A stretch of 51,120 bases of DNA from Halogeometricum pallidum JCM 14848. Its GTDB lineage: Archaea; Halobacteriota; Halobacteria; Halobacteriales; Haloferacaceae. The stretch covers positions 52,571-103,690 of the forward strand of contig NZ_AOIV01000037.1 in assembly GCF_000337095.1 (NCBI RefSeq), written 5' to 3'. The translations under genes were made by a program, and so were the position numbers. Below the pieces are notes generated by a model. It had not been told where the DNA came from. It worked only from the letters and a program-made list of their open reading frames with translations, and made no database searches. This document shows, in pieces, positions 12,649 to 20,314 of the stretch; positions within the stretch are counted from its first letter, which is position 1; the number at the start of each line of letters is the position of its first letter.

Positions 12649-13488
12649 CTACTCGCGTAGTTCTCGGAGTCGGCTCGGCATCAGGCTCTCGCCCCGTTCC
12701 TGGCGGTCGGCGGCGCGACTCGCCGCCTCGACGCTCGCGAACGCGACGAGCGCGCCGGCGGCCACGTCCGTCGCCCAGTGGATGCCGAGGTACATCGTCG
12801 AGACGGCGATGGACACCCCGAGGAAGACGGCGACGGGCGTCCACCGCGGGTAGACGCCGCGGAACCGCCACGCGAGGAGCGCGACGGTGCCCGACAGCGA
12901 GGTGTGCAGCGACGGGAAGACGTTCGTGTTCACGTTCACCTGACTCGTCAGCAACTGCGCCTGCGGCCAACTGTTGTACAGGAGCGGTTGCACCATATCC
13001 GGCATGAAGTTCCGCGGCCCGTAGGCGACGAAGAGGATGTAGCAGAGCAGGCCGACGCCGTAGTTGGTGATGTAGGCGAACAGGACGACGCGGAGGGGAC
13101 GGGACTCCTCGTACATCGCGTACGCCGCCAGCGGAAACACGAGGAGGAACACGTAACCGAAGATGTAGACGAACCCGAAGTACGCCGTCAGCGCCGGCGT
13201 CGCGAACGACTGCACGAACGCGACGGTGCTCCCCTCGATGGCGTGGATGTAGCCGGTGATGTTCAGTCCGATGAGCCACGACAGTTCGACGCCGATATCG
13301 CGGATGACGCCGTTGGCCGCGAGGACGACGACGAGGGCGATAAACACCGGGGCGACCGCGCGCGCGTTCGCCCGGACCGTTCGAGGAGCGGTTCGGAGCC
13401 GCGACGGCCCGACGACGAGCACCGCGGCCGTGACGAGGAGCGCGAACACGCCCGCGCCGACCTGCAGGACGACGTCGAGGAGCGCCAT
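12649..13488 (-). CDS. PAP2 superfamily membrane phosphatase
   Basis: A 279-residue membrane protein of the PAP2 (phosphatidic acid phosphatase type 2) superfamily, closest to the inositol-phosphoceramide-synthase-like branch. Signature parts are YGPRNF (about 164-169), VFPSLHTSLSGTVALL (PSxH, about 200-215) and STMYLGIHWATDVAAGALVA, in which the catalytic His and Asp face the outside of the membrane. The substrate would be a lipid or isoprenyl phosphate. The ATG shares its A with the stop of the upstream lipoprotein gene (TGATG at 13490-13486), so translation is coupled and the two products probably work in one process. Confidence 0.87.
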   Translation of the reverse strand: MALLDVVLQVGAGVFALLVTAAVLVVGPSRLRTAPRTVRANARAVAPVFIALVVVLAANGVIRDIGVELSWLIGLNITGYIHAIEGSTVAFVQSFATPALTAYFGFVYIFGYVFLLVFPLAAYAMYEESRPLRVVLFAYITNYGVGLLCYILFVAYGPRNFMPDMVQPLLYNSWPQAQLLTSQVNVNTNVFPSLHTSLSGTVALLAWRFRGVYPRWTPVAVFLGVSIAVSTMYLGIHWATDVAAGALVAFASVEAASRAADRQERGESLMPSRLRELRE

Positions 13489-15458
13489 CAGTTCCCCTCC
13501 AACAGCTTCCCGTCGGAGTACTGATAGCCCGCGTCGCGGAACGCCTCCCTCGCTCGGTCGGCGTTCAGTTCGCCGTCGGTTCCGAAGAACGGCGTCACGG
13601 AGTTTTCTCCGTCCCACCGCAGGTCGTCGGGGACCCACCCGGTCCCGGCGAGCGGACTCATCGCGGGCCGCGCGTAGCCGCCGAACACGTCGTCCACGAG
13701 GAACGATTGGTCGACGAGTCGAGCCAGCGTGTTCCTGAACCGGGGATTCGTCATCGGCGGCCGGCCGGCGTTGTGCCCGAGGATGAACGGCGTCTCCGAG
13801 CGGCCGACGAGCAGTTCGAGGTCCGGCGCGCGGCCGATGCGGGGGACGGTCGAGGCGCCGACCGTCGTGCCGGTCACGTCGGCGTCGGCGTCCGCGACCA
13901 TCTCGACGGCCGTCATGTCGGAGCCGACGACCTGCACGGACAGCCGTTCGAACTCGGGGGGCTGGGCCGGGAAGCCCGCCTCCGTCGACGCCTCGAAGAG
14001 GAAGTGCTCGTCGAACCGTTCGAGCACGAGCGACTCCCGCGGGGTGTTCTGGGCGAACGCGAACGGGCCGCTCCCGACCGGCGGGATGTTGTTCGTCACG
14101 ATGGCCTCGGTTGCGGGCCCGATTTCGATGCCGCTGACCGACGCCCGCGACGTCCGCTCCTGCCAGATGTGCTTCGGGAGGACCGGCACGGTGAACGCCC
14201 GCGTCGCCAGTTTGGGTTCGCACTCGACGAAGTCGAACTCGACGGTGTGCGTTCCGGTCGCGCGCACGTCGGCGACGAGGCTGTTCCGTCCCTGGAACCG
14301 CGGCGCGGGGATGCGCGTGTCGCCCTCGTCCTCGGTCGTCGTTCCCGTTTCCATCGACGTGTCCGCGAGGAGGCGGTGCGTGAACGCCACGTCCTCGGCG
14401 GTGAGCGACTCGCCGTCGTGCCACGTCAGGTCCGGTCGGAGCCGCACCGACGCGCTCGGCGCGTTCCCGCCGCCGGAGAACGCCCACGACTCGGCCAGCC
14501 ACGCCTCGACGCCATCGCCCGTCTCGACGCCGAGCGAGTCGTACAGGAGGCCCGTGATGAGCCCGTCGCGGCGGTACTCGACCGACAGGGGGTTGAGATT
14601 CTCCGTCGCCCGCTTGTCGGTCGTCGCCGTTCGGAGCGTGCGCGCCTCGCTCGCCCCGGTCGTACCGTCGGTTCGGGTCGGCGTCTCAGTCGGTGTCGCC
14701 GTCGGAGTTAGGGTCGGTGTCGCCGTCGAGGACGTGATCGGCGACGACGAGTTGGAGTTCGACGTCGCTCTGACCGTTCCGTCGCCCCCGTTGAGCGTCG
14801 ACGCGCCGGCCGCGGGAGTGGCGTCGCCGTCGCTGCGCGCCAGCGATAGATAGCCCAGCGGGGAGTTGAGGTCGGCGGTTCGCCAGTTCCGGTAGTTGTC
14901 GGTGCGCGCCGCGCGGATGTCGTCCGGGAACGCGAGGAGGGTGAACGGCTGGGTCCGCGCGATGCTCCGCTGGAGTTCGTACACCGCCTCGCGTCGCTCC
15001 GCGCCGGTCGTCGTCCGCTGGGTCTCCAGCAGGTCGTCGACGTCGAGGTTCGCGTAGCCGAACGGGTTCTGCCAACCGGGGGCGTCGGCGAACCGCGAGT
15101 GCAGGAGCGAGTAGAGCCCGTCGGGTTCGTGAAACTGGTCGGGGAGCCGTGCGACGAACAGCTCGAAGTCGTTCTGCACCAGTACCTGCCGGAGCAGTTC
15201 CTCGCTCGCCATCGGCGTGACCTGCGCGTCGATACCGGCCGCGCGGAACCACGCCGCGACCTGACGGGCGAGGCGCAGGGCGTAGGGGTCGGCGTCGGCC
15301 GGGACGGTTTTGATATCGAGGGAGACCTGGTTCGCCGACCGCCAGCCCGCGACCGTCCGCAACCGACGCACACATCCGCCGGAGAGTGCAGTCACGCCTG
15401 TCGCGAGCGTCCCGAGGACGGCTCGCCGACGGACTGCGGAGGGCGACGACTGTGGCAT
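13488..15458 (-). CDS. Peptide-type ABC substrate-binding lipoprotein with permuted domain order
   Basis: A 656-residue exported lipoprotein with a twin-arginine motif VRRRAVLGTLA (8-18) and lipobox LSGGC (Cys28). The family is SBP_bac_5 (DppA/OppA-like), but the order is unusual. Residues about 43-205 resemble the end of a normal family member: ADPYALRLARQVAAWFRAAG, a central strand, FGYANLDVDDLLE and LQRSIARTQPFTLLAF. A Thr/Ser/Pro linker follows (about 230-265). Then comes the normal beginning: ENLNPL, LLYDSLG, LAESWAFS and LRPDLTWHDGESLTAEDVAF at about 285-360. The chain ends at ADRAREAFRDAGYQYSDGK, just where family members usually continue into the segment found here at the N-terminus. 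No permease or ATPase genes are adjacent; the coupled partner is a PAP2 protein. Confidence 0.85.
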   Translation of the reverse strand: MPQSSPSAVRRRAVLGTLATGVTALSGGCVRRLRTVAGWRSANQVSLDIKTVPADADPYALRLARQVAAWFRAAGIDAQVTPMASEELLRQVLVQNDFELFVARLPDQFHEPDGLYSLLHSRFADAPGWQNPFGYANLDVDDLLETQRTTTGAERREAVYELQRSIARTQPFTLLAFPDDIRAARTDNYRNWRTADLNSPLGYLSLARSDGDATPAAGASTLNGGDGTVRATSNSNSSSPITSSTATPTLTPTATPTETPTRTDGTTGASEARTLRTATTDKRATENLNPLSVEYRRDGLITGLLYDSLGVETGDGVEAWLAESWAFSGGGNAPSASVRLRPDLTWHDGESLTAEDVAFTHRLLADTSMETGTTTEDEGDTRIPAPRFQGRNSLVADVRATGTHTVEFDFVECEPKLATRAFTVPVLPKHIWQERTSRASVSGIEIGPATEAIVTNNIPPVGSGPFAFAQNTPRESLVLERFDEHFLFEASTEAGFPAQPPEFERLSVQVVGSDMTAVEMVADADADVTGTTVGASTVPRIGRAPDLELLVGRSETPFILGHNAGRPPMTNPRFRNTLARLVDQSFLVDDVFGGYARPAMSPLAGTGWVPDDLRWDGENSVTPFFGTDGELNADRAREAFRDAGYQYSDGKLLEGN

Positions 15459-15569: not shown

Positions 15570-16097
15570 GTGTCGCTCTCAGGTCCCGGTCTCGAACACC
15601 TCGCGTACCTCCTGTTCGCCGTCGTGACACACGCCGCCGTCGGCTACGCGCTCGTCTCCGCGTTCACCGACCGGCCGCCGCGCGCCGGCGTCGTCGGCGC
15701 CGTCCTCCCGGACGTCGACCTGCTGTTCCCGCTCGCGTGGACGTTCCCGTTCGACCACCGCGGACTGACACACACGCTCGCCTTCGCCGCGGCCGCCGCG
15801 GCCGTCGTCGCTCTCGCGCGGCGCCCGCGCTGGTCGGCCCGAGCGGCGGCGCTCGGACTCTGCTCGCACCTCCTCGTCGACTCGTTCACGAAGAGCGGCG
15901 TCGCGTGGCTCTACCCGCTCGCAACCGAGCGGCTGGCCGTCGCGGCGTCGGTTCACTCGGGGTGGGGGGCCGCCCTCCTCTGGGGGTTCGCCGCACTCGC
16001 GGTGGCCGCCGGCCGGCGGTCGTCTGACGCGGGAGAAACAGCCGGCAGCGCGACGGAGTCGGGAATGTCGGAGACCCCTGACGCGCCCCGCTTCTGA
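15570..16097 (+). CDS. YdjM-like membrane-bound metal-dependent hydrolase (DUF457 type)
   Basis: A 175-residue membrane protein starting at GTG 15570. It has the family pattern of membrane-bound metal-dependent hydrolases of the YdjM/DUF457 group. These are VVTHAAVGYAL near the N-terminus, VLPDVDLLFPL (about 45-55), HRGLTHTLAFA (about 66-76) and CSHLLVDSFTKSGVAWLYPL (about 100-119). The His and Asp residues would bind metal at the membrane surface. Four hydrophobic segments are visible, and a 30-residue polar tail ends the protein. It is divergent from the permuted lipoprotein gene. The substrate is unknown for the family. Confidence 0.82.
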   Translation: MSLSGPGLEHLAYLLFAVVTHAAVGYALVSAFTDRPPRAGVVGAVLPDVDLLFPLAWTFPFDHRGLTHTLAFAAAAAAVVALARRPRWSARAAALGLCSHLLVDSFTKSGVAWLYPLATERLAVAASVHSGWGAALLWGFAALAVAAGRRSSDAGETAGSATESGMSETPDAPRF

Positions 16098-16150: not shown

Positions 16151-17542
16151 ATGGCACCAAATCGGCGAGTGCTCCGCGGTCTGTTCGCGTCGTTGGTCCT
16201 CGTCTCTTCGGTCGTCCTCGTCGTCGGCTACGTGGACGCACAGCGCAGCAACGACCGGGTGACGGGCGACCCGGCGGTCGAGCAGGCGTTCCGAACGGGC
16301 GACCGAACCTCGGTCGTCGCCCCGCGCGACGACATCACCGTCGTGGCGACGGACTCAAACGCGTTCGTGAGCGACGAGAGCGACAGCCCCCGCGCGCAGG
16401 CCGAACTCACGGCCTTCGCGCCCGACGGTAGCATCTACTACTATCAGAACGACCACACGCGCTACTGGGACGTCGACCGCGTCCCGAACACCACGGCGAC
16501 GGTCGAGTTCGTCTACGCCGACCACCTCGACGCCGACGAGTGCGGCGAGACGGTCTGCACCCGCAACGGCGTCGAACGCGTGAACCTCACCACCGGCGAG
16601 TCCACCGAACTGTTCAGCCGCATCACGCCGGGGAAACACTCGACGCGGTGGCACGACGTGGACCGCGTCGGCCCCGACCGCCTCCTCGTCGCCGACATCT
16701 ACCAGGACCGCGTGTTCGTCGTCAACACGACCACGAATCTAACGACGTGGGAGTGGGACGCGCAGTCCGACTTCGACGTGGCGACCAGCGGCGGGCCGTT
16801 CCCCGAGGACTGGACGCATCTCAACGACGTGGAGTCCGTCACCGTCGACGGCGAGTCGGCCGTGATGGTGAGCCTTCGAAACCACGACCAGGTGGTCTTC
16901 ATCGACCCGCAGGAGGGGCTGATGAAGGAGTGGACGCTCGGGAGCGACGGCAACCACTCGACGCTGTACGAGCAGCACAACCCCGACTTCATCCCCGCCG
17001 AGGACGGCGGGCCGGCGCTGCTCGTCGCCGACTCCGAGAACGGCCGCGTCATCGAGTACCAGCGGCGAGGCGGCGAGTGGGTCCAGTCGTGGACGTGGAC
17101 CGACCGGCGGATGCAGTGGCCGCGCGACGCCGACCGACTGCCGAACGGTCACACCCTGATAACCGACTCGAACGGCGACCGCACGTTCGAGGTCGACGAG
17201 GAGGGCGAAGTCGTCTGGACCGCGTCCATCGGGTTCCCGTACGAGTCCGAGCGATTGGGCACGGGCGACGAGAGCGCCGGCGGGCAGAGCGCCGCGAGCC
17301 TCGGCCTCCCCTCGCGGACGGCGTCCGAACTCGAACCGACGCTGACCTCGCGCGTCGCGTCGCTGGTCCCGGCGACCGTGCGCAACGCCATCGCGTACGC
17401 CTTCCCGCGTTGGGTGGGCCTCCTCGAAGGTCTCGCCGTCCTGGCGCTCCTCGGGTCGCTGCTGGCGTGGGGGACGCTGGAGTACCGCTGGTCGAGCCGT
17501 ACCGTTAGCTTTCAGTTGCCGGTCCGCATCCGGAGGAAGTAG
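16151..17542 (+). CDS. Arylsulfotransferase (ASST)-like beta-propeller membrane protein
   Basis: A 463-residue protein with an N-terminal hydrophobic anchor (about 9-27), a long extracytoplasmic beta-propeller (about 40-370) and a C-terminal membrane segment (about 423-443) with a basic tail. Propeller repeats typical of the arylsulfotransferase family are WHDVDRVGPDRLLVAD, WTHLNDVESVTVDGESAVMV and RDADRLPNGHTLITDSNGDR. Several N-glycosylation sequons are present. Bacterial ASSTs transfer sulfate between phenols. Haloarchaeal relatives have no proven reaction and may be binding or sulfation enzymes for surface glycans. The next gene starts two bases after its stop, so the pair forms an operon with a glycosyltransferase-like protein. 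Confidence 0.75.
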   Translation: MAPNRRVLRGLFASLVLVSSVVLVVGYVDAQRSNDRVTGDPAVEQAFRTGDRTSVVAPRDDITVVATDSNAFVSDESDSPRAQAELTAFAPDGSIYYYQNDHTRYWDVDRVPNTTATVEFVYADHLDADECGETVCTRNGVERVNLTTGESTELFSRITPGKHSTRWHDVDRVGPDRLLVADIYQDRVFVVNTTTNLTTWEWDAQSDFDVATSGGPFPEDWTHLNDVESVTVDGESAVMVSLRNHDQVVFIDPQEGLMKEWTLGSDGNHSTLYEQHNPDFIPAEDGGPALLVADSENGRVIEYQRRGGEWVQSWTWTDRRMQWPRDADRLPNGHTLITDSNGDRTFEVDEEGEVVWTASIGFPYESERLGTGDESAGGQSAASLGLPSRTASELEPTLTSRVASLVPATVRNAIAYAFPRWVGLLEGLAVLALLGSLLAWGTLEYRWSSRTVSFQLPVRIRRK

Positions 17543-17544
17543 AC

Positions 17545-19134
17545 GTGGCAGACGCTTCGCTCCGTTCCCGGTTCGCCCGGTCGGTCCGCTTCGAGGACGA
17601 CCCTCCGTTCGACGCGCGCGACCGCACGTGGCTCGCGCTGGCGGTTCTCCCGGCGTTGGTCTCCGTCGCCGTGTACCTCGCGACGAACCCCTACCCCGCC
17701 TACGGCGCGGGACTGTACGCGCAGATCGCACGCGAAATCGTCGCTAACGGCTACCTCCCGCCGGCGCGCATCCCCGGCTACACGGCCGACGGCGTTCCGT
17801 TCGCCTATCCGCCCCTGCAGTTCTACGTGTTCGCCCTGCTCCGCGACGTGGGCTTCGGACCGGTCGCCGTGGCCCGCTTCCTTCCCGCGGTGGCCGTCGT
17901 CGCCGTGCAGATTCCCGTGTACGTGCTCGCCCGCGACCTCCTCGACTCGCGGCCGGCGGGGACCGTCGCGGCGGCGGGCGTCGCGCTGAACCCGCAGATA
18001 CTGGAGTGGCATCTCTCGGCGGGCGGGGTCGTCCGCGGCTTCGCCTTCCTGTACGCGCTGACGGCCATCTGCGCGGGCTACCGGCTGTTCACGACCGGCG
18101 ACCGCCGTGCGCTGGTCGCGGGGGTCGTCGTCTTCGGGATGACGGTGCTGTCGCACCCGACGTACACCCTGTTCACCGTCGTGAGCTACCTGCTGCTCTG
18201 GCTCGCGCTCGACCGGTCGCTCGTCGGTCTCGTCCGCGGCGCAGCCGTCGGCGTAGGCGGCGCGGTCATCGCCAGCCCGTGGCTCCTCTGGGCCGTCTCC
18301 ACGCACGGACCGGGCGTGTTCACCTCGGCCGCGGGGACCCACGGCGGCATCGGCGGCGGTGTCGAGGCGATATTCGGCGGCATCTCGATGTACACGCTCG
18401 TTCCCCTGCTCGCCGCCGCGTACCTCCTCGTCGTCCGCCGGGACCTGCTCCTCCCGGCGTGGGTGGTCGTCGCGGAACTGCTGTTCCAGCAGCCCCGGTT
18501 CGTCTACACCGTCGGAACGTTCGCCCTCGTCGCCGCCGCCTTCGACGCCGTCCGGCGCTTCTCCCTCTCCGAGCGGTTCGCCCGGTCGGTCGGCGGACGG
18601 ACGGGCGGCGTCGACTGGCGCGCCGCGAGCGTCGCGGTGCTCGTCGTCGTCGCGTCCCTCGGCGGGGGGACGGTCATGGCCTATCAGAACACGCTCCCGT
18701 CGGACCCCTCCACGCCCGAGTTCCTCGACGACGAGGCGGTGGACGCGATGGCGTGGGCCGAGACGGAGACGCCGCCGGACGCGACGTTCGTCGTCCTCGG
18801 CGACGGCGCCGAGTGGTTCCCGGCGCTGACGCAGCGGACGATTCTGGTCGGCATGTGGGGCGTCGAGTGGGAGGACCCCGGGAAGTTCGAACGACACATC
18901 GACGCCTTCGTCAACGGCTCGACCTGCCAGAGCGCCGGGTGCGTCGAGACGGCCATGCACTCGGTCGACGCGCGCCCCGACTACGTCTACGTTCCGAAGG
19001 GACACTACACGGTCCGCGGCGTCAGCGAGGTCCAGTTCGGAACGCTCGAACGCTCCTTCGAGGCCTCGCCGCGCTGGGAACTCGCCTTCGAGAACGACGG
19101 CGTCGCCATCTACCGCGCGACCGGCGGCGAGTAG
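17545..19134 (+). CDS. Polytopic GT-C-like glycosyltransferase (PMT/GT39-like)
   Basis: A 529-residue protein starting at GTG 17545. It has about ten membrane segments between residues 30 and 390, then an extracytoplasmic C-terminal domain of about 130 residues. The first outer loop (YPAYGAGLYAQIAREIVANG) and the FAYPPLQFYVFALLRD segment resemble GT-C membrane glycosyltransferases. These use lipid-linked sugars on the outer face of the membrane. No clear acidic catalytic pair is seen in the first loop, so the call is a fold-level one. Operon linkage to an ASST-like propeller protein suggests that the pair modifies surface glycans or glycolipids. Confidence 0.6.
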   Translation: MADASLRSRFARSVRFEDDPPFDARDRTWLALAVLPALVSVAVYLATNPYPAYGAGLYAQIAREIVANGYLPPARIPGYTADGVPFAYPPLQFYVFALLRDVGFGPVAVARFLPAVAVVAVQIPVYVLARDLLDSRPAGTVAAAGVALNPQILEWHLSAGGVVRGFAFLYALTAICAGYRLFTTGDRRALVAGVVVFGMTVLSHPTYTLFTVVSYLLLWLALDRSLVGLVRGAAVGVGGAVIASPWLLWAVSTHGPGVFTSAAGTHGGIGGGVEAIFGGISMYTLVPLLAAAYLLVVRRDLLLPAWVVVAELLFQQPRFVYTVGTFALVAAAFDAVRRFSLSERFARSVGGRTGGVDWRAASVAVLVVVASLGGGTVMAYQNTLPSDPSTPEFLDDEAVDAMAWAETETPPDATFVVLGDGAEWFPALTQRTILVGMWGVEWEDPGKFERHIDAFVNGSTCQSAGCVETAMHSVDARPDYVYVPKGHYTVRGVSEVQFGTLERSFEASPRWELAFENDGVAIYRATGGE

Positions 19135-19174: not shown

Positions 19175-20314
19175 TCACAAGATGCCGAACAGCGGCAGTC
19201 CCAGCGCGACGAGCCACGCCACGGCTCCGCCGCTGATGGTCTGTCTGTCCTGGCGCGCGACGCCCACGGCGAACAGGCCGAGCGCGCTTACCAGCGCGAC
19301 GCGGTGAAGGACGAACTGCACGGAAACGGCGTTGGCGCCGACGGCGCCGAGGTCGAGGACGATTCCAGCGCCCAGTCCGGCGGCGGCGAGGAGCGCCGAC
19401 CGCGTCGCCGGTCGGTCGCGCGCGAACATGGTGACGAGGAACGGCGGCCCGGCGACGATGACTGGGTAGAGCACTGCAGCGAACAGTTTCGGCGTGACGC
19501 CCGGAATCGCGTGTTCGAGTGCGATGCCGGCCGACCGGACGCCCAAGATGAGTCCCGCGAGCGTCACCGGCAGGACGGCGGCGTCTGCGACGTCGCGGTG
19601 TCGAGGGTCGAGCGGCACGACGGAGGCGACGGCGCCGGCCGCGCCGGCGGCCGAGGCGAGTTCGATTATCGTGATCCAGCCGTCGCTGCCGCCGCCGCCG
19701 AGGCCGTGGTACTCGCGGCTGATTCGCTCGATGAACGGTTCGTCGCGCAGGTCGCGTTCGAGAAAGCGGGCGCCGGGTGCGACGCCGGTGACGGTGTGCC
19801 GCAGGCGAAGCCAGTCCCAGTATTCGGTGTGCGCCTGGAACGCGGTCCAGTTACCCGAGGGAGCCGGGTACGCCCGGATGTGCACCCGCTGACCGAGGTA
19901 GGTGCCGGTCGCCAACTGGTACTCCGACTGGAACCAGCGGCCGGTGATGTTCGGGTCGACGGTGACGTACGTGTAGCGCGAGGCGCCGCGGGCCGGTTGC
20001 CACTCCGACTCGCCGATGGTCGCGTTGTCGTCGTCGACGACGGCCGTCCAATTGGTCTCCGCGCGGCGTTTCAGCGCGCGTCTCGTCTGGTCGGGGTCGC
20101 CGATGATGAGAACGTTGAGCGCGAGAGTCCGCCCCGTAGTCGACCGACTCCGACTCGTGTAGGGCCACACCTGCGTCCCGGTATCCTCCGGTTGGATGAG
20201 TTGGTCCTCCCGCGGCAGCACCGTCTCTTCGCTTCCGGGCGCCCCGAGCAGGATGCTCCCGGTGAGCGCGACAACGACGAGGGCGACGAGCACTGCGCTT
20301 CGGTGGTATCGCAC
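19175..20314 (-). CDS. Membrane protein with LssY-C-like outer domain, unknown function
   Basis: A 379-residue protein. It has an N-terminal anchor (about 7-25) and then an extracytoplasmic domain of about 180 residues with NxT sequons and the stretch TLALNVLIIGDPDQTRRAL. Six hydrophobic segments fill residues 215-379. The outer domain resembles the LssY C-terminal domain found beside PAP2 phosphatases, but this is a weak match made by eye. It converges with the GT-C gene. Codon use and sequon content support a real surface-facing membrane protein. I do not assign a reaction. Confidence 0.7.
   Translation of the reverse strand: MRYHRSAVLVALVVVALTGSILLGAPGSEETVLPREDQLIQPEDTGTQVWPYTSRSRSTTGRTLALNVLIIGDPDQTRRALKRRAETNWTAVVDDDNATIGESEWQPARGASRYTYVTVDPNITGRWFQSEYQLATGTYLGQRVHIRAYPAPSGNWTAFQAHTEYWDWLRLRHTVTGVAPGARFLERDLRDEPFIERISREYHGLGGGGSDGWITIIELASAAGAAGAVASVVPLDPRHRDVADAAVLPVTLAGLILGVRSAGIALEHAIPGVTPKLFAAVLYPVIVAGPPFLVTMFARDRPATRSALLAAAGLGAGIVLDLGAVGANAVSVQFVLHRVALVSALGLFAVGVARQDRQTISGGAVAWLVALGLPLFGIL

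Follow-up and report, generated by a model that had tools for sequence, protein, structure and literature searches.

The genome of the haloarchaeon Halogeometricum pallidum JCM 14848 contains, within the stretch of 51,120 nucleotides analysed here (the window), a substrate-binding lipoprotein of the SBP_bac_5 family (SBP), a membrane enzyme of the PAP2 family and a third protein that we call M. The SBP is circularly permuted, its gene has a conserved translational overlap with that of the PAP2 protein, no Dpp-type permease gene was detected beside its clade, and SBP, PAP2 and M are inherited together even where their genes lie apart. We propose that a transport binding protein has been re-partnered, together with M, and now serves an extracytoplasmic lipid-headgroup enzyme as a subunit that binds a ligand or regulates activity, and we put the probability of this reading at roughly 0.47. 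The coordinates of all features are collected in Table 1.

A preliminary description of this DNA reported that the two genes overlap in TGATG, and this is correct: both lie on the minus strand, and the stop codon of the SBP gene (TGA, 13490–13488) and the start codon of the PAP2 gene (ATG, 13488–13486) have one base in common. A search with 21 aligned members as input, covering one genome per species in 84,980 species, gave 194 pattern matches, 166 of them encoding a relative; of these only the 80 best, all with haloarchaeal titles, were retained. At 78 of these 80 best loci PAP2 follows directly after SBP on the same strand; it lies 2.3 kb off in L135 and is missing from L084. These loci hold 93 SBP frames of at least 300 amino acids (aa), and since 60 of the 93 overlap the following PAP2 gene by 1 nt (28 frames) or 4 nt (32 frames), the overlap is above chance. 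One more frame overlaps by 11 nt, 21 are followed by a gap of 0–30 nt and six by a gap of 31–250 nt, two lie further away (one of them, in L138, a split frame), and for three there is no PAP2 (the L084 frame and, at both L142 and L148, the second copy). A further set of 35 loci, taken from the 32 SBP-positive genomes among 60 relatives and overlapping the first set in some genomes, has PAP2 at 29 loci (2.3 kb off in L058). The pair is kept across the 80 best loci, which rules out a curiosity specific to the window.

Two SBP genes are present at 12 of the 80 loci (L107, L108, L110, L111, L118, L121, L131, L136, L142, L144, L148 and L149), ten times in the order SBP–PAP2–SBP–PAP2 and twice as SBP–PAP2–SBP; from their genus names we take the hosts to be Natrialbaceae. 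The order SBP–PAP2–SBP is also found at L056 and L062. The SBP frame is fragmented in L052 (also a Salinigranum rubrum plasmid match) and in L138 (Halobellus rufus), possibly through decay or sequencing errors.

The permutation of the lipoprotein, also noted in the preliminary description, is borne out by profile, structure-database and part-swap alignments. Positions 2–284 of the 368 positions of the Pfam profile SBP_bac_5 (PF00496) map to SBP residues 317–651 with 141.2 bits, against a cut-off of 32.4. Residues 110–176 align with residues 404–466 of 5isu, in the C-terminal part of that binding protein (4.7 bits), and residues 124–186 with 402–465 of 6i3g (11.0 bits), both matches being weak alone. 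When the two parts of the SBP were swapped, a single alignment ran through the new junction to residues 177–498 of AppA (1xoc; 28 bits). The swap raised the whole 1xoc score from 32.6 to 44.2 bits, and that of the best match, 5isu, by only 1 bit. The AlphaFold2 model of the SBP, built from a 21-sequence alignment, has a mean predicted local distance difference test score (pLDDT) of 80.9 and a predicted template modelling score of 0.79. The VIA-align comparisons of this model span the C-terminal part only, and there residues ~267–656 match AppA 17–357 with Z 22.3 and a root mean square deviation (rmsd) of 3.3 over 331 aligned residues. The window lipoprotein is a genuine circular permutation of the SBP_bac_5 fold and does not follow the ordinary N-to-C order. 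It shares fold and profile match with the Dpp/Opp/App/Nik binding proteins (PF00496; AppA 1xoc, CcNikZ-II 8efz), but unlike them it is permuted, has PAP2 and M as partners and has no permease genes found beside it.

The SBP begins with a twin-arginine translocation (Tat) signal followed by a lipobox (RRRAVLG...LSGGC), the two marks of a haloarchaeal Tat lipoprotein. Of 130 family copies (frames >400 aa), 126 carry the pattern RR...[GAST][GAST]C; for this count a script chose the start sites, guided by the window protein, and some genomes are in both locus sets. Among the four misses, the starts of L109 and L139 were placed too late, L064_6743 is a second, overlong start for a matching copy, and L076 reads TVGC.

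In ordinary importers a binding protein of this type works with permeases, and a neighbourhood survey had been named as the way to check whether this pair differs. With seven DppB/DppC-type queries from the same genome (tblastn, E 1e-4), no Dpp-type permease match was found at any of the 115 SBP loci, whose flanks were mostly 7–8 kb, some of them clipped by contig ends. Beside other haloarchaeal SBPs the same queries detected a permease at 25 of 30 loci, with flanks of just ~1.5 kb. This comparison set was collected with a second SBP of the same genome (C6:1868-3595, locus L190), which had 33 matches, 30 of them with loci. The C6 protein is also a permuted Tat lipoprotein: profile positions 290–366 (a weak match) precede positions 5–297, the same permutation point by profile as in the window SBP, and downstream of its gene come DppB, DppC and two ABC-ATPase-like genes. 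The SBP of L226 is unpermuted; the other 29 loci (L190, L198–L225), at 25 of which the permuted order was checked individually, form a permuted SBP_bac_5 clade that adjoins DppB in 24 cases. The literature searches made, which returned mostly the openings of abstracts, listed no account of importer binding proteins permuted in the way of C6.

A tree of 60 rows, made with a quick method, places the PAP2-linked SBPs and three copies without adjacent PAP2 in one group (30 rows) and the other permuted SBPs in a second group (24 rows), each with a value of 99 in the Shimodaira–Hasegawa-like approximate likelihood ratio test (SH-aLRT). The branch to six ordinary SBPs is weak (65), with long branches. 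The tree excludes the 80 species-search loci, L036, L037, L045, L047 and L050, PAP2-type frames <541 aa, other frames <480 aa, and L208, L209, L210 and L216, where no frame was found. The sister clade has the same permutation and mostly adjoins DppB, including one member in this genome, whereas the window clade has PAP2 in that place. Therefore, permutation and PAP2 partnership are separate matters, and permutation as the mark of a non-transport role is ruled out. The non-transport role suggested in the preliminary description keeps the support of the pair's conservation in haloarchaea, with no Dpp-type permease gene found at the 115 loci, but the permuted fold in itself is no sign of it. The opposite outcome, homologues usually sitting with DppBCDF genes and a PAP2 link confined to this locus, was not found for the window clade.

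Co-occurrence was scored in 60 related genomes, with thresholds of E 1e-20 for SBP, E 1e-10 for PAP2 and E 1e-8 for M. SBP and PAP2 were each found in 32 genomes, both in 31 and neither in 27. SBP occurs alone in G049, where it reaches the contig end, and PAP2 alone in G051 (E 1.7e-17). Of the five genomes in the genus of the window, three carry the pair and two lack both genes. PAP2 is not beside SBP in G056 and G059, where PAP2 matches that may be orthologues of the operon type are present elsewhere (best E 5.6e-68 and 9.5e-45). Extra PAP2 matches away from SBP were also seen in SBP-positive genomes (L239–L249); L247 adjoins an M gene and L242 lies near a GT-C-like gene.

Protein M was picked out by clustering of SBP neighbours, and it is missing from the preliminary description although its gene is inside the same window. 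M proteins have ~400 aa. M was found in 29 of the 60 genomes, all SBP-positive; 28 genomes have neither, none has M without SBP, and in three SBP-positive genomes (G037, G044 and G047) M was not found at E 1e-8. In 10 of the 29 genomes the M gene shares a contig with SBP at a distance of over 8 kb, and in seven it is on a different contig of a draft assembly. It lies within the flanks at 51 of the 115 loci, and at 33 of the 115 it is directly upstream of SBP on the same strand. Ten M proteins scanned against Pfam had no match above cut-off and two below it (E 0.21 and 0.65), and the search for PDB relatives gave none that was convincing (best E 0.14). The N-terminal part of M suggested a comparison with the LssY C-terminal domain (LssY_C, PF14067), which is fused to PAP2 in bacteria. 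This profile had 31 matches over the 60 genomes, all under its 25-bit cut-off; M genes are the best two (E 0.0024, 18.6 bits, and E 0.020) and four of the 31 in all, and M of the window genome is not among them. M is a separate protein that falls outside this family by score, and a possible distant relation is taken as a lead only.

The PAP2 protein belongs to its superfamily by profile (PF14378, E 1.5e-15; PF01569, E 2.2e-10) and has the C2 histidine and the C3 histidine and aspartate. PAP2 enzymes have an outward-facing active site. The name phosphatase, used in the preliminary description, is doubtful. The arginine of the motif SRx5Hx3D is replaced by threonine in 117 of 117 sequences (Thr 231 in the window protein), so that the classical PgpB-like motif is absent; PgpB carries SR at the aligned position. 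Aur1, IPC synthase and other lipid phosphotransferases are not known to carry the C3 arginine either. The C1 motif Kx6RP is absent too, with an invariant GPRN instead and leucine at the lysine place in the window protein; active SMS enzymes without C1 are described in one report (PMC5798408). The model of the PAP2 protein (20-sequence alignment, mean pLDDT 92.0) is nearest to IPC synthase 9vj4 (Z 18.8, 213 aligned, rmsd 2.8) and then Aur1–Kei1 9ivc (Z 18.3, 227 aligned, rmsd 3.9), followed by LpxE 6ebu (Z 16.2, 164 aligned, rmsd 2.4), 5jki (Z 14.1), SMSr 8ijq (Z 13.3) and PgpB 8bm3 (Z 12.6), the PAP2 fold being common to all of them. The window protein shares the His–His–Asp centre with Aur1/IPC synthase and differs from it in being archaeal, in its identity of 14–16 percent and in its pairing with SBP and M. 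Because of the predicted fold and the motifs, we favour a transferase over a plain phosphatase.

In the mechanism that we propose, the SBP clade would have departed from the importer and become, together with M, the extracytoplasmic binding subunit of the PAP2 lipid enzyme. SBP, PAP2 and M would be in physical contact. The PAP2 protein might transfer or remove the phospho-headgroup of a membrane lipid or a polyprenyl carrier, and the SBP would take hold of the polar part of the substrate, or of a signal that sets the activity of the enzyme.

LpqW is a bacterial lipoprotein that is not known to be permuted or to be a transporter subunit, and we know of no PAP2 partner for it. The mycobacterial structure (PDB 2grv) has the same fold as the window SBP (Z 19.7, 327 aligned, rmsd 3.9); Foldseek and VIA both match it to the SBP model, but not above many transport SBPs, and the likeness is one of fold only. 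Two papers place LpqW in the synthesis of phosphatidylinositol mannosides and lipomannan (PMC3229680, PMC12421883), and the first says that it channels a PIM4 intermediate towards lipomannan. LpqW is a precedent for an SBP_bac_5-fold lipoprotein that serves lipid-glycan pathways. Haloarchaeal chemotaxis offers another precedent for a non-transport SBP of the same class, in BasB and CosB. CosB is a chemotaxis binding protein, and the partner of both is a transducer, not a PAP2 enzyme. BasB is described as a chemotactic periplasmic substrate-binding protein of Haloferax volcanii (PMC12240190).

A sensing or regulatory role would fit as well as the presentation of a substrate to the enzyme, the option raised in the preliminary description. 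In a version of the proposal that overlaps with ours, the SBP would only bind an envelope or environmental ligand and switch the PAP2/M enzyme, as LpqW or BasB might do, with no handover of substrate. The retained SBP_bac_5 fold and the co-inheritance with two membrane proteins agree with this, but the Pfam scan of the PAP2 protein found no signalling domain and M has no Pfam match above cut-off. No result here distinguishes sensing from substrate presentation, and we regard a purely regulatory SBP as unlikely, while giving it real weight.

Several points count against a binding subunit of a lipid enzyme. The permease queries came from the genome itself and could overlook divergent permeases in tblastn. 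SBP has no adjoining PAP2 at six loci (L006, L045, L047, L063, L064 and L084), and L066 ends at the contig edge. The Fisher values of 9e-15 (SBP/PAP2) and 4e-14 (SBP/M) take no account of the relatedness of the genomes and hence overstate independence. The sequence profile puts PgpB, the best PDB sequence match (E 1e-6), above AUR1 (E 0.0035). The ASST-like and glycosyltransferase neighbours would suggest a task in glycolipid or sulfolipid metabolism, but their co-inheritance with SBP is not strict. Among the six SBPs of this genome that are unpermuted, two (C8:23409 and C38:137765; SBP_bac_5 genes at L191:7131-8756 and L192:6520-8304) likewise have no adjoining permease, so an orphan SBP is not remarkable by itself. 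The genome has 41 PF00528 matches, and the SBP could use permeases encoded elsewhere.

The last two of these points, with the equally permuted sister clade beside DppB, agree with an orphan importer subunit, in which the SBP would serve distant Dpp-type permeases and the PAP2 protein would dephosphorylate a nutrient such as an organophosphate before uptake. The lack of a permease match at all 115 loci, the close co-inheritance with PAP2 and M, and the likeness of the PAP2 protein to lipid phosphotransferases in fold and motifs speak against it, and we consider it improbable, the least probable of the explanations weighed here.

Among the other neighbours, the ASST-like gene is present at 30 and the GT-C-like gene at 35 of the 115 loci, mostly on the strand opposite SBP. 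Neither is a core part of the system: ASST-like genes occur in 37 of the 60 genomes, 19 of these without SBP (p 0.43), and the glycosyltransferase, found in 15 (13 with SBP and two without, p 0.003), is missing from 19 of the 32 SBP genomes. The YdjM-type gene is rejected as a core part as well, being present at only nine of the 115 loci. Four of the six loci that lack PAP2 have a YdjM-type gene directly upstream of SBP on the same strand (L006:7689-8225, L045, L047 and L084:7372-7986), as if substituting for the enzyme; three of these four represent one lineage. At 13 of the 115 loci there are clustered ABC ATPase genes on mixed strands, of which the one that was scanned is LivG-like; we take them as unrelated.

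These neighbours bear on a further explanation, the recycling of a polyprenyl carrier. The PAP2 protein would then act in surface glycan assembly as a dolichyl-(pyro)phosphate phosphatase, with M as partner and the SBP as a glycan-binding accessory. The frequency of the GT-C-like and ASST-like genes is consistent with it, as are two annotations close to the pair (a phosphoglucosamine mutase in Haloferax gibbonsii pHG2, L261, and glmM/glmS in Haladaptatus halobius, L262), the rank of PgpB, a C55-PP phosphatase, in the sequence search and the weak LssY_C similarity of M. However, all three proteins are missing from 27 of the 60 genomes, which argues against a general recycling step, and besides the gaps in the glycosyltransferase the ASST-like gene is missing from 14 of the 32 SBP genomes (both genes scored at E 1e-20). 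Carrier recycling is quite unlikely in our judgement.

Table 1. Positions of the SBP, PAP2 and M genes, their motifs and neighbouring genes in the window
Feature	Positions	Strand	Basis
Permuted SBP_bac_5 Tat lipoprotein (SBP), 656 aa	13488..15458	-	Profile, PDB sequence, part-exchange and model matches; PAP2-linked clade SH-aLRT 99
Tat-type signal peptide and lipobox, SBP residues 1-29	15372..15458	-	Sequence
SBP N-terminal segment, ~residues 45-211, corresponding to the C-terminal part of ordinary SBP_bac_5; holds GWQNPFGY	14826..15326	-	
SBP low-complexity Ser/Thr linker, residues 212-269, joining ancestral C- and N-termini; pLDDT <50	14652..14825	-	
SBP C-terminal segment, residues 270-656, corresponding to the first ~357 residues of ordinary SBP_bac_5	13491..14651	-	1xoc match
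TGATG stop/start overlap of SBP and PAP2 genes	13486..13490	-	Sequence
PAP2 (PAP2_3-type) membrane enzyme, 279 aa	12649..13488	-	Pfam, predicted model
Invariant GPRN at the place of motif C1	13009..13020	-	118/118 sequences
PSLH of motif C2, His 195	12904..12915	-	117/117, one row cut
H237-x3-D241 of motif C3	12766..12780	-	117/117
Protein M, 372 aa, co-inherited third component: signal-like stretch, N-terminal domain, several C-terminal hydrophobic stretches	19175..20293	-	
YdjM-type membrane protein, divergent neighbour	15570..16097	+	
ASST-like (PF14269/PF05935) neighbour, accessory	16151..17542	+	
GT-C-like (PF13231, exactly at cut-off) membrane glycosyltransferase candidate, frequent neighbour	17545..19134	+	

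In public annotation the SBP is an 'ABC transporter substrate-binding protein' in 12 of 12 plasmid records, and the PAP2 protein is a 'phosphatase PAP2 family protein' in the two regions inspected. No description of the SBP–PAP2 pair was found in literature searches on permuted binding proteins, on haloarchaeal PAP2 proteins and lipoproteins and on LssY/PAP2, which covered mostly the openings of abstracts and few subscription papers. In these salt-loving archaea the trio looks like an undescribed cell-surface system that modifies lipids or glycans. A more specific proposal, that M, SBP and PAP2 form a distinct haloarchaeal envelope machine in which an importer-derived SBP is the specificity subunit of a lipid phosphotransferase and which makes a headgroup-modified lipid or glycolipid in the haloarchaea that carry it, is doubtful but worth considering.

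If the binding subunit proposal is true, a transport binding protein would have given up its ABC importer altogether for a new partner, a membrane lipid enzyme, while keeping a permuted fold in common with its transport relatives. Haloarchaeal proteins that are annotated only as a substrate-binding protein or a PAP2 phosphatase would gain a function as well. The three genes are patchy in their distribution yet jointly present, and direct genetic and lipid tests are therefore feasible.

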